Of a DNA stretch of 50,842 nt, positions 29,672 through 39,069 are shown piece by piece. The notes beneath the pieces were generated by a model that was not told the origin of the DNA, searched no databases, and worked only from the letters and a program-made list of their open reading frames with translations. The stretch is from Dehalococcoidia bacterium (lineage in GTDB: Bacteria; Chloroflexota; Dehalococcoidia; DSTF01; JACRBR01). Position 1 is the stretch's first letter. Every line of letters begins with the position of its first letter. The stretch is from positions 1-50,842 of the forward strand of contig JBBDXD010000004.1 in NCBI GenBank assembly GCA_040902535.1, given 5' to 3'. The position numbers and the translations under genes were made by a program.

Positions 29672-30175
29672 TCAGCTTGCGGCGGCACACGGCCCGAATG
29701 GCTCGTTCACGAGCCGCTCGCGCGCCGTGATGTGAAACTCGCCGATGATCTGCGACAGGATCGGCGTCGCCGCCGAGAAGGCGTAGCCAACGTTCACTTC
29801 GATCGCGTCGCACTGCTCCCCCGGGCTATCGTCGAGGGCCGGGTTCGCGTAGGCGGGATAGTCCCAGCTTCTGAAGCCCACCGTCAGGTCGCCCGCCGGA
29901 TTGTTCAAGCCCTCGGTCTGCGTGCGCGCCACGTGCTCGATGCACGCCTCGCGCGTTGGCGATGCGATGTTGCAGTCGGCGCGGCCCGTGACGCCGTAGC
30001 GCGCGCCCTCGCGTGCGGCGTGCTGGATCGTCACCCACGACTGGTACAGGCGCGCCATGTCGATGAATCCAAAAACCAGCAGGAAGAAGATCGGCGCCAC
30101 GAGCGCGAACTCGGCCAGCGTCTGCCCTCGCTCGCGGCGGCGGCGTCTTCGGCTGCTTCGGACGTTCGTTTGCAT
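29672..30175 (-). CDS. TadE-like pilus assembly protein
   Basis: A 167-residue TadE-family pseudopilin-like protein. A basic N-terminus ('RRRRRRERGQ') leads to 'TLAEFALVAPIFFLLVFGFI', the TadE membrane segment with the conserved Glu, then 'VTIQHAAREGARYGVTG'. Such proteins are extracytoplasmic parts of Tad/Flp pilus systems. The ATG at 30175 is preceded by TAGGAAG, which contains the stop codon of the upstream gene, so translation is probably coupled. No tadA, tadB or flp gene lies in the window. The 150 nt between this gene and the bc promoter hold no feature I can see. Confidence 0.85.
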   Translation of the reverse strand: MQTNVRSSRRRRRRERGQTLAEFALVAPIFFLLVFGFIDMARLYQSWVTIQHAAREGARYGVTGRADCNIASPTREACIEHVARTQTEGLNNPAGDLTVGFRSWDYPAYANPALDDSPGEQCDAIEVNVGYAFSAATPILSQIIGEFHITARERLVNEPFGPCAAAS

Positions 30176-30182
30176 CATCTTC

Positions 30183-31475
30183 CTACTCAATCAGCCGGAA
30201 CGCGATGGCGTGCGCGATGTCTTCGAAGACCGCCGGCAGGTCTTCTGCCGTCGGTACGCGGTAGAAGTGGTCGTTCGTGTTCAGTGTCGACGATGCGATG
30301 CACTTCACAGCCTCTGGTCAGCCGTCGTGTCGGGATCGTTGTTCCCGATTTGGCCGCCGTTCGAGTCCGTCTTGCATTGATCCGCGGTGTACACGGTGTT
30401 GTTGTTGGAGGATCCGCACGCGCCGAACGCCACGACGTAAATCTCGATGTCCTGATTCTTCAGCGTGACGGCGAGATCGCGCGTCTTGCGATCCAACGAT
30501 CGCTCGCGCGTCTCTGAGTTCGAGCCCGGGTTGGAACTCGATGCCGAACCGGAGTTAGCCGCCGAGCAGCCGGTGCCGACGAAGGCATCGGAAGACGTGA
30601 AGTTGCTTTCCGGCCGGCCGGCAGGTCGTCGGCGGCGTTCCCTCGCTGCTCGAATAGGAAGCGCTGTTGTAGGTGTTGTCGCCGTCCGTCAGGATCACGA
30701 TCGAGTTGAGCGTATTGCTCGCTGTCTGGGCGTTCGGCCCGTCGAACATCTCCTGCGCCTTGTACAGCGCCAGACAGACGTTCGTGCCCGTGCCGCCGAT
30801 CGCCGTAGTGTCGTCGATCGCGCCTACGATGTCGTTCAGGTCGACGGTGAGGTCTTCGAGCATGTTGTCGGTGACGCAGCCGCTGTGCGTGCGTGGCGGG
30901 TTATGGCAGCCACGAAACGGCGTATAGCCGACCTGCGTGAAGCCGCTTGCATCGGCCAGGAAGAAGTCAGCGAAGCCTTCGGCTGCGTCCTTCGCTTCCT
31001 TAATAGGGCAGCCGGAGTTGCTGTCGGAGCTGTTGCACGGACTCGCCCCCATGCTTCCGGTCGAGTCGACGAGCAGCACCGTATCGGCGGGGACGATCCC
31101 GAAGCCGGCCGCCGCGCTCGCCGTGATGTCCAGGTCCTCGAACCCGACGATGCGCATGAATAGCATGCCCACGTTGCGCGTGCCTTCGACGCGGAATTGA
31201 TTCTCACTCGCCGCCGGGAAGCTGAGCGTCGCATCGGACTGGTTCTCCGTCATGTAGGCTGTCGCGCGCGTCTGCGCGTCAGCGATATCCGGCAACTCCA
31301 GCACGCCGGCGAGCGCGGCCGCGTCCAGAGCGCGCGTCAGTTCGGCGCGCGCCACGTACACCCGTCCCGCATCGATCGCCAGTCCCGTCATCGCCATAAA
31401 TGTGACGAGGAGCATGACGAACATCGGGAGCACTTGTCCCCGTTCACTGCGCAGGTGGCGCACGATGCGCAACAT
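30183..31475 (-). pseudogene. TadG-like vWA-domain pilus protein with two frameshifts
   Basis: The N-terminal part (31475 to about 30620) is a TadG-like protein: 'SERGQVLPMFVMLLVTFMAM' membrane segment, 'RAELTRALDAAALAG', and a von Willebrand A domain with the metal site 'VLLVDSTGSMGAS' and 'IVILTDGDNTYNS'. After 'PTTC' the frame breaks at a (CCGG)3 run (30609-30622 region). The next part continues in another frame ('DLAVTLKNQDIEIYVVAFGA' to 'NNDPDTTAD'). A second break at an AGAG sequence near 30310 returns to the first frame, which ends 'HFYRVPTAEDLPAVFEDIAH' and a TAG at 30183. Deleting one CCGG and one AG gives a continuous protein of about 428 residues. It may be a true pseudogene, a variable gene or a sequencing error. 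Confidence 0.75.
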
Positions 31476-31495
31476 CTCGGTACTCCTTCCGCCGC

Positions 31496-31936
31496 TCAGT
31501 TCGTCGACGGCGGGAACGCCCGCATCGCGGTTGCGCTGCAGATCCGGAGCGTGTCCGGAACGATGAGCGGAACATCAAGCAGGGGTTCGTAGTCGTTGCA
31601 CACTTCGACCTTGACGGCGTTAACGCCATCGATCTGGTTGTGTGTAACGGCGATATCAGTAAGGGGGTTGATCGGGTTTCGGAGACGCTCGGTCTCGATC
31701 ACCACGAGGTTCTTGATCTCGTCGTCGGTCGCCAACCCCTTGGAGCCGAGGCGGGCGCCGTCGCGTGCCGTCGAGATCACGGTCACGTACGCGTTCATGG
31801 CGTTCGTCACTTCGACGACGCCGATGATGAGGACGAGGAAAATGGGCAGCAGAAAGCCCATCTCAACGAGCGTCTGTCCGCGCTCGCTGTGGCGGCTCCG
31901 CTTACGCCGGAAAGCGTTCGCGATGACTCTCCCCAT
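31496..31936 (-). CDS. TadE-like pilus assembly protein
   Basis: A 146-residue TadE-family protein and first gene of the pilus cluster. 'SRHSERGQTLVEMGFLLPIF' holds the basic N-terminus, the conserved Glu and the start of the membrane helix; 'TVISTARDGARLGSKG' follows. The ATG at 31936 lies in the loop of a GACTCT/AGAGTC hairpin, and the frame is open a little upstream without a better start. A TadG-like gene follows 20 nt later and a second TadE-like gene after that, the usual TadE-TadG-TadE type of minor-pilin block. Confidence 0.82.
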   Translation of the reverse strand: MGRVIANAFRRKRSRHSERGQTLVEMGFLLPIFLVLIIGVVEVTNAMNAYVTVISTARDGARLGSKGLATDDEIKNLVVIETERLRNPINPLTDIAVTHNQIDGVNAVKVEVCNDYEPLLDVPLIVPDTLRICSATAMRAFPPSTN

Positions 31937-31943
31937 CAAGAGT
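31924..31943 (-). promoter_or_regulatory. Hairpin enclosing the first tadE start codon
   Basis: On the minus strand GACTCT and AGAGTC form a 6-bp stem, and the ATG of the first TadE-like gene lies in its 8-nt loop. Upstream come CCGG-(7 nt)-CCGG and GGTGATGCAAAG. The arrangement could regulate translation. Confidence 0.35.
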
Positions 31944-32209
31944 CTTCCGATCTTTGCATCACCGGACCTTCCCCGGCGCTGCTGCATCGGCCCCGGTACC
32001 GGTGCCGATATGACGGGAACCGCGCTCGCTCAGTTATGTGAAGTACCAAACGGCTGAGGTCGGGTATGCCGGAGCGTCGGATCCATCCTTGCCGGCGGTC
32101 TCTCCCTAGGTGATCTATCGGCCGTACAGGGTCCCTTCTGTACGTCCCCGGACTCCGGCTCAAACGCGGCGGCAGGGGCTTTCGTTGCACGCCCGCGAGT
32201 GGAGGGAGC
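31944..32209 (-). other. Gene-free leader region upstream of the pilus cluster
   Basis: About 270 nt without a convincing gene. It contains stems CGTACAG/CTGTACG (32123-32144), CCGGA-C-TCCGG (32148-32158), and GCCGG/CCGGC arms around 32070-32095. It is probably the promoter and untranslated leader of the tad genes and the 3' flank of the luciferase-like gene. No known RNA class is firmly recognised. Confidence 0.35.
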
Positions 32210-37454: not shown

Positions 37455-37621
37455 GTCGGCGCTCCTTCGAGAGTTCACGACGATCGCGGTTAGCGGCGAT
37501 AGCGTAGCCCGACCCCCGTGTACGGCACACACCCGCCCGGGTGACACGCAGCGCTTTGCGATCGACGCGATGCGCCATATCGTCGCGTCATCGGCAACCG
37601 AAGAGGAAAGGGAGGTGGACG

Positions 37622-38107
37622 ATGGCCGAACAGGACCCCGCAGGAGGGGACACGGCACCGGACGACCTGGAGACAGCGCGGGCGGAAGTCGGCAGGTTGG
37701 AAGCGGCGGCTGCGCAGGCAGCCGACGAAGCAGCCTCGCTGCGATCCGCATTGGCGGAAGCGCAGGCAGCGAGCGAAACGTCGTCGAGCGAGGCGGAGGA
37801 CCTGCGCGCGCAGATCGCCGAAACCGCGCAGCGCGAACGCGACGCCGCGACACGGTACCGGGAGCTTGCGATCCGCGCCGAGCCGGCGCTTCCGGCCGCC
37901 CTCATCGCCGGCGACACCATCGCCGCGGTCGATGCGTCGCTCGTCGCCGCGCGCGACGTCGTCGGGCGCGTGAGGTCGCACATCGAAGCGCAGGCGAGCG
38001 CGACGCGCGTGCCCGCCGGCGCCCCGCAGCGTTCATCAACCGACCTCAGCGCGATGACGCCTCAGCAGAAGATTCGCTACGGACTCGAACAACGGGCGCA
38101 AGGATAG
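37622..38107 (+). CDS. Coiled-coil protein paired with capsid gene (possible scaffold)
   Basis: A 161-residue acidic protein. Residues about 15-90 form a long coiled coil rich in Ala, Glu and Arg ('ARAEVGRLEAAAAQAADEAA'). The C-terminal half contains 'ALIAGDTIAAVDASLVAARD' and ends 'DLSAMTPQQKIRYGLEQRAQ'. Phage scaffold proteins and the N-terminal delta domain of HK97 capsids are also coiled-coil, and the next gene encodes an HK97-fold capsid, so a scaffold or cargo-adaptor role is the best guess. AGGGAGGTGG stands before the ATG. The capsid gene starts 74 nt downstream with its own ribosome site. Confidence 0.6.
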   Translation: MAEQDPAGGDTAPDDLETARAEVGRLEAAAAQAADEAASLRSALAEAQAASETSSSEAEDLRAQIAETAQRERDAATRYRELAIRAEPALPAALIAGDTIAAVDASLVAARDVVGRVRSHIEAQASATRVPAGAPQRSSTDLSAMTPQQKIRYGLEQRAQG

Positions 38108-38181
38108 CAACCCCTCGCGCCGGCAGCGTGCGTCGCTGGCGACGCACCCGTTTCCCCAATCATTGACTAAGGAGACTACGC

Positions 38182-39069
38182 ATGGCACTCACACTCGCGG
38201 AAGCAGCCAAGCTTTCGAACGACACGGTTCTGCAGGGCGTGATCGAGACGGTCATCCTGGACTCGCCCGTGTTGCAGTTGTTGCCGTTCGTCGAGATCAC
38301 CGGCAACGGACTCACGTACAACCGGGAGAACGCAGCCCCGACCGCCGCGTTCTTCGACGTCGGCGATACCTGGACCGAAAGCACACCGACGTTCACACAG
38401 ATCACTGCCACGCTGAAGATCGTCGGTGGCGATGCGGACATCGACAACTTCCTGCTCACGACGCGCAGCAACGTTCAGGATCTGCAGTCAGCCGTGATCA
38501 GCCTCAAGGCGAAGGCCGTCCAGCGTAAGTTCGAAGACACGTTCGTGAACGGCGATACAGCCGTCGATGCCAAGTCGTTCGACGGCATCGACAAGCTCGC
38601 GACCGGCGGGCAGGCCGCCACCATGGGCACGAACGGCGCGACGCTTTCGCTCACGAAGCTCGACGAGTTGATCGACCTGCTGAAGGGCGGCCGCCCCGAC
38701 ATGCTCCTGATGAGCAAGCGGACGCGCCGCGGCCTCAATACGCTCGCGCGCGCCTCCGGCGGCTTCCTGGAGACGGACCGCAACGAATTCGGCCAGATGG
38801 TGCAGTGGTACGACGGCATCCCGGTCGGCGTGTCGGACCACATCTCGGACGCGAAGACCGTCGGATCGAGCACTGACTGCTCGACGATCTACGCCATGTC
38901 GTTCGGCGAGGGCGGGCTCGCGGGGATCACGGCGCCGGGCGGCCTGATCGTCGAGACCGTCGGCAGCCTGGAGACGAAGGACGCGACGCGCACGCGCGTG
39001 AAGTGGTACGTCAGCGTCGCGCTCTTCAATGCGCTCAAGCTCGCGAAGCTCGTCGGCGTCAGGCCCTGA
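38182..39069 (+). CDS. HK97-fold major capsid protein, isolated
   Basis: A 295-residue protein of HK97 capsid type. The N-terminal arm 'LSNDTVLQGVIETVILDSPV' leads to the E-loop-like region 'GNGLTYNRENAAPTAAFFDV', then 'TATLKIVGGDADIDNFLLTT', a spine helix 'LKAKAVQRKFEDTFVNGD', the P-domain 'GRPDMLLMSKRTRRGLNTLA', and the C-terminal A-domain strand 'RVKWYVSVALFNALKLAKL'. There is no protease-cleaved delta domain; the separate coiled-coil protein upstream may replace it. AAGGAG stands 8 nt before the ATG. No terminase, portal, protease, tail or integrase gene is near, so this is either a prophage remnant or a domesticated shell of encapsulin kind. Confidence 0.75.
   Translation: MALTLAEAAKLSNDTVLQGVIETVILDSPVLQLLPFVEITGNGLTYNRENAAPTAAFFDVGDTWTESTPTFTQITATLKIVGGDADIDNFLLTTRSNVQDLQSAVISLKAKAVQRKFEDTFVNGDTAVDAKSFDGIDKLATGGQAATMGTNGATLSLTKLDELIDLLKGGRPDMLLMSKRTRRGLNTLARASGGFLETDRNEFGQMVQWYDGIPVGVSDHISDAKTVGSSTDCSTIYAMSFGEGGLAGITAPGGLIVETVGSLETKDATRTRVKWYVSVALFNALKLAKLVGVRP

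Follow-up and report, generated by a model that had tools for sequence, protein, structure and literature searches.

Family 2 encapsulins such as SrpI and Mmp1 are HK97-fold shells that hold cargo enzymes and come without portal, terminase or scaffold. Gene transfer agents (GTAs), for which the current classification recognises three families, are defined by six features: particle proteins derived from caudoviricetes; a genome fully endogenised in the host, often over several loci; mostly vertical inheritance, with host co-diversification; incomplete packaging of that genome, the head size being limited; packaging of mostly random host DNA; and delivery of DNA to other cells (PMC9662315). The RcGTA-like agents (Rhodogtaviriformidae) have an HK97-fold capsid, a portal and a chromosomal terminase, are vertically inherited and often occupy several loci, and the genome of the Brachyspira agent (BhGTA) is likely dispersed over several loci as well (PMC9662315).

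The window (the whole 50,842-nucleotide stretch of Dehalococcoidia DNA that was analysed) holds a pair of genes on its forward strand, which the initial annotation had described as a stand-alone capsid gene directly preceded by a coiled-coil partner. Both open reading frames were confirmed. The first (37622..38107) encodes a 161-aa protein made of a variable coiled coil and then a conserved C-terminal segment, and the second (38182..39069) a 295-aa HK97-fold major capsid protein. Each has a good ribosome-binding site, read from the sequence on the same strand (GGAGG at 37611..37615 for the ATG at 37622, AAGGAG at 38169..38174 for the ATG at 38182). No promoter-like or terminator-like site was seen around the pair.

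The capsid assignment was upheld by three family libraries, Pfam Phage_capsid (1.6e-12), PHROG_212 major head protein (1.6e-73) and NCBIfam MCP_gp7_epsi_15 (2.8e-64), and by the predicted fold. Over its full length, the protein is 43% identical to Pseudomonas phage head proteins. Its AlphaFold2 model (pLDDT 81) retrieved HK97-fold shells, with family 2 encapsulins giving the best Foldseek scores; searching the PDB with the sequence gave chance-level matches only (E>0.2). As the initial annotation had it, the delta domain is missing: no such domain, of about 100 residues, stands ahead of the fold in the model.

Neighbours of the pair in the window are metabolic and transport genes. For the 41 other window proteins, family searches (partly among the 25 most frequent families listed) recognised no gene of terminase, portal, integrase or tail type, a tRNA search of the window found none, and PADLOC returned coiled-coil noise only. 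The absence of the usual phage genes from these 50 kb, amid housekeeping genes, was thus rightly noticed, and one copy each of several of them lies elsewhere in the genome (see below). The window genome (G000) shares the surroundings of the pair with G001, a genome of a different genus: a gene for a propeller protein lies on one side, aconitase and MacB on the other. The window also contains part of a Tad pilus locus (29672-31987, reverse strand), with two pilus proteins of TadE type and another protein having a similar hydrophobic N-terminus.

In other families, the capsid gene has four companions in its clusters: genes for a portal of SPP1 type, an adaptor of SU10 type, the large terminase and a protein of about 656 aa. 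Profiles of these four proteins were run against the window genome, and other phage genes were searched by family. The capsid gene is single copy there, and one each of the four others was found on a different contig, C28, at two loci with 180 kb between them (our loci L073 and L074). The SU10-like adaptor (C28:3832-4422) and the ~656-aa protein, a predicted tail hub (C28:1017-2978), lie together with a 73-aa protein at 0.6-4.6 kb. The portal (C28:184650-185960) and the large terminase (C28:186895-188241) lie at 184.6-188.9 kb with a 113-aa ORF and a Cys/HTH protein. The scaffold and capsid genes on contig C4, which carries the window, form the remaining locus. All four C28 genes are open frames; adaptor and portal match the families SU10_adaptor and SPP1_portal, and the terminase keeps its Walker A (ARQGGKNE) and Walker B (LLEVDEAQD) motifs and its acidic nuclease residues. 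Beside the loci of the window genome, no gene for lysis was recognised. Small conserved ORFs stand ahead of the terminase at several loci (L027 9010-9231, L033 1089-1340, L074 12556-12897), encoding an XhlA-like membrane protein or a protein of about 113 aa in the usual position of a small terminase.

The coiled-coil protein belongs to a family of at least 21 members, which adjoin portal and/or capsid genes; in compact clusters, a member always stands between the two. Within the family, the C-terminus is conserved and the coiled coil is variable. The window protein ends in MTPQQKIRYGL, and the protein in scaffold position of Acinetobacter phage HHU4 in MTPAQKIAAGL. An ending of the form (K/R)(I/L)xxGL was found in the ORF directly upstream of a same-type capsid in 6 of 11 phages, versus 1 of 311 control ORFs from the same stretches, the pattern being looser for phages than for controls and the motif having been spotted in one phage before the others were counted. 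In two of the 11 phages the upstream ORF is annotated as a scaffolding protein, and one of these two, Pseudomonas phage Ab18, has the motif. Compared directly by BLAST, the coiled-coil protein and the Ab18 scaffold gave no match; the kinship of the former with phage scaffolds is proposed because the C-terminal motif is shared. On sequence grounds the coiled-coil protein is the scaffold of the capsid, with its C-terminal end presumably binding the capsid; the KIRYGL codons (residues 150-155) of this end lie at 38069..38086 on the forward strand, as placed by family alignment and phage comparison. An HK97-type capsid with a separate scaffold, encoded just upstream and conserved at its C-terminus, is what the pair presents, and the suggestion that a coiled-coil protein takes the place of the delta domain is borne out by the position of the family and by the phage scaffold motif.

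The nature of the hub rests on its fold, because tblastn of the protein against phages gave no matches. The model of the ~656-aa protein, built from a relative (L097), is of high confidence (pLDDT 91.5). Over about 340 residues it resembles known tail hubs, namely Mu gp44, the MuSo2 43-kDa protein and VgrG (E ~1e-15, viral models agreeing), with a TM score of about 0.7 by target for Mu-type hubs, and a six-bladed propeller resembling a fucose-binding lectin is inserted at residues 42-335 (Z 26.6, rmsd 2.7 over 259 residues). The protein is thus predicted to be a tail hub of the gp27/Mu-gp44 kind, into which a lectin-like beta-propeller has been inserted. The compact clusters showed neither a tape measure nor a tail tube protein, and from this absence the tail is likely to be short.

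The five genes for capsid, terminase, portal, adaptor and hub (the kit) were then counted in 40 related genomes. All five are present in 20 genomes, four in nine, three in four and none in seven, an all-or-none pattern. A capsid ortholog occurs in 25 of the 40, in none of them as the sole kit gene. The initial annotation would have taken the pair for a prophage remnant if homologues always lay inside complete prophages, or if it were missing from close relatives and flanked by att sites; in the family of the window, six of the seven other genomes carry the capsid (77-85% identity), outside any recognised prophage. Across the class, it was found in 170 of 393 sampled genomes and 113 of 226 genera, nearly always in single copy. 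A species-wide genome collection yielded 33 loci, by title from Chloroflexota or Dehalococcoidia except for an unplaced bacterium and a contig that bears the label Aminicenantes.

Assembly errors do not account for the dispersal, since it is seen in closed genomes: in the Dehalococcoidia chromosome OX638292.1, capsid and adaptor are adjacent and the terminase is 370 kb off, and in G136 and G157 the gap between capsid and terminase is about 0.6 Mb. Loci hundreds of kb apart could not fit into one phage-sized headful. In G013, the kit genes remain colinear across 25 kb and host genes lie between them; this looks like an intermediate state. Five genomes that are at least 97% complete lack all five kit genes, and the closed, reductive-dehalogenase-bearing genome G030 retains remnants only (L092 6676-11203: truncated portal and hub, full-length terminase, no capsid), so the kit is dispensable. 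The G030 locus is a remnant of the same element after internal deletion. Closed genomes with 21-50 reductive-dehalogenase matches carry the kit. Two closed genomes (G084, G206) have two terminase genes at separate sites. In three closed, high-GC genomes (G076, G162 and G191; loci L271, L276 and L277), only the capsid and a divergent terminase were recognised, with one long reverse-strand ORF between them.

A tree of the five kit proteins, concatenated, was compared with the rpoB tree in 22 genomes. Thirteen of 19 splits were common to both, versus a maximum of two after label shuffling, and the patristic correlation was 0.70. Disagreements fell mostly at weak rpoB nodes, except for two deep, well-supported ones around G020 and G038, which, judged from these trees, may reflect transfer. 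Values of dN/dS were considered for close pairs only, because high GC compresses dS and makes between-genus values unreliable. They were mostly 0.05-0.3, showing purifying selection, and those of the capsid (0.05-0.10 in the two closest comparable pairs) were near those of rpoB. Even among close pairs, the hub and some terminase pairs exceeded 0.3. The hub evolves fastest, with 0.28 in G006/G007 and more in distant pairs; its dS is raised in G006/G007, possibly by recombination.

Part of the wider family is mobile. Many IMG/VR contigs show the order terminase-portal-scaffold-capsid-adaptor-hub, several with a tyrosine integrase gene upstream, and one 49.7-kb contig (L297) has this type of terminase together with primase-like genes. 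In the TerL tree, the sequences from the window's taxonomic order group together, largely from chromosomes, and most integrase-bearing contigs fall elsewhere. Since integrase-bearing relatives exist in other Dehalococcoidia, and given this tree, domestication is claimed for the window's order alone. Kit genes occur on short IMG/VR viral contigs (L126-L181, L283-L352); where these belong to the chromosomal clade, they may be pieces of host DNA classed as viral. On two of the contigs (L126 4936-7295, L127 926-3282), a serine recombinase gene immediately precedes a short portal ORF of 214 aa, giving the impression of an insertion into the portal gene.

Taken as a whole, the pair is best explained, with a probability of about 0.6, as the module that supplies scaffold and capsid to a dispersed GTA-like system, derived from a phage, inherited vertically and encoded here at three chromosomal loci. 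The lone capsid gene is thus probably a piece of a gene transfer agent rather than an isolated shell. A stand-alone shell, as first supposed, is contradicted by four genes at other sites of the same genome (terminase, portal, adaptor and tail hub), which co-occur with the capsid in relatives. The same findings suggest a particle that packages DNA and speak against an encapsulin; a domesticated shell of encapsulin type, in which the coiled-coil protein would serve as cargo adaptor, is hardly credible. Its attraction lies in the fold, family 2 encapsulins being the best structural matches; the sequence families of the capsid, however, are those of phage head proteins, the coiled-coil protein has a phage scaffold motif, in the 40 relatives the capsid never goes without packaging or tail genes, and where an encapsulin would have a cargo enzyme and no DNA-packaging genes, the neighbour here is a scaffold, with portal and terminase co-occurring. 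A phage-derived particle with another use, such as bacteriocin-like killing, phage interference or DNA storage, and no gene transfer, is quite improbable too. The lectin-like propeller could target kin, and the genes are under purifying selection, but a protein-only device needs neither the portal nor the terminase, both of which are kept, the terminase with intact-looking motifs, and a tailocin-type tube or sheath was not seen.

The remaining alternatives concern the state of the phage itself. In favour of an ancient prophage that was broken up, its pieces decaying at different speeds, are the clear phage ancestry of the capsid, the dispersed genes and the case of G030, where portal and hub are truncated and the capsid is gone. 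Yet open frames are kept across genera and families, dN/dS of close pairs is mostly low, with the capsid near rpoB, and five genes are co-retained at separate loci, so that the degraded prophage of the initial annotation is poorly supported and we consider it unlikely. Nor do integrase, packaging, head, tail and lysis genes form one block, the genes being at three loci. That Dehalococcoidia have an active family of temperate phages or satellites, of which the window copies would be mobile-element parts merely looking vertical, is rather unlikely. In its favour, compact integrase-bearing clusters of the same genes are present in metagenome viral contigs, and the capsid diverges by 15-23% between genera of the window's family. 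Against it, integrase, tRNA and replication genes are absent near the loci in the window, distances between loci reach 0.6 Mb in closed genomes, the kit tree is congruent with rpoB, and the TerL tree sets the window's order apart from most integrase-bearing contigs. The domesticated setting that had been suggested is favoured by rpoB-congruent inheritance, purifying selection and chromosomal loci in the window's taxonomic order, and GTAs, already named as possible relatives, agree with packaging, head and tail genes that are dispersed and vertically inherited.

Under the preferred reading of a dispersed GTA-like system, scaffold and capsid would build a procapsid on the portal, into which the terminase would pump chromosomal DNA. 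The adaptor would then seal the head and bear a minimal tail, a trimer of the hub, which would bind recipient cells through its built-in lectin-like propeller. We infer in this way particle formation, host-DNA packaging, release and transfer. That Dehalococcoidia (Chloroflexota) possess a functional GTA which arose independently, its genome exploded and its minimal tail reduced to one hub protein with the lectin-like propeller, and that it moves host genes, including those for reductive dehalogenases, between organohalide-respirers, is put forward tentatively, as possible rather than probable. No report of a GTA in Chloroflexota was found in the literature searched, which left out most subscription journals, and the GTA-like particle is apparently the first in this phylum. 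GTAs are known from few lineages, and a class-wide case in Dehalococcoidia would add an independent exaptation. Within one class, the steps from a compact integrase-bearing element to scattered chromosomal genes can be compared. As carriers are found among closed genomes with numerous reductive-dehalogenase matches, the system may be testable in culture, and may bear on the spread of dehalogenase genes.

Compared with described systems, the closest mobile relatives (L175, L299, L327, L345 in IMG/VR) have the same terminase-portal-scaffold-capsid-adaptor-hub order, but are compact, carry a tyrosine integrase and fall mostly in another TerL clade. Phage Ab18 and its relatives (Mesyanzhinovviridae) resemble the window system by a 43% identical capsid and an annotated scaffold directly upstream with the same C-terminal motif; in contrast, they are complete viruses with tape measure and long-tail genes. 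Family 2 encapsulins share the HK97 fold. BhGTA has other proteins and another host phylum, and is experimentally shown, whereas the window system is predicted from its genes. Relative to RcGTA-like agents, the window system belongs to an unrelated phylum, has a capsid of the epsilon15-gp7/PHROG_212 type with a separate scaffold, shows neither tail tube nor tape measure among its genes, and splits head and packaging genes over three loci. With the GTA definition it has in common caudoviricete-derived proteins (capsid, portal, adaptor and hub, matched as families or folds from the genes), endogenisation over several loci (three here, with gaps of 0.37-0.6 Mb in closed genomes) and vertical inheritance (13/19 rpoB splits, two deep nodes disagreeing). 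On three of the six features, then, the window system would work like a GTA, and it stands as a candidate member of that group.
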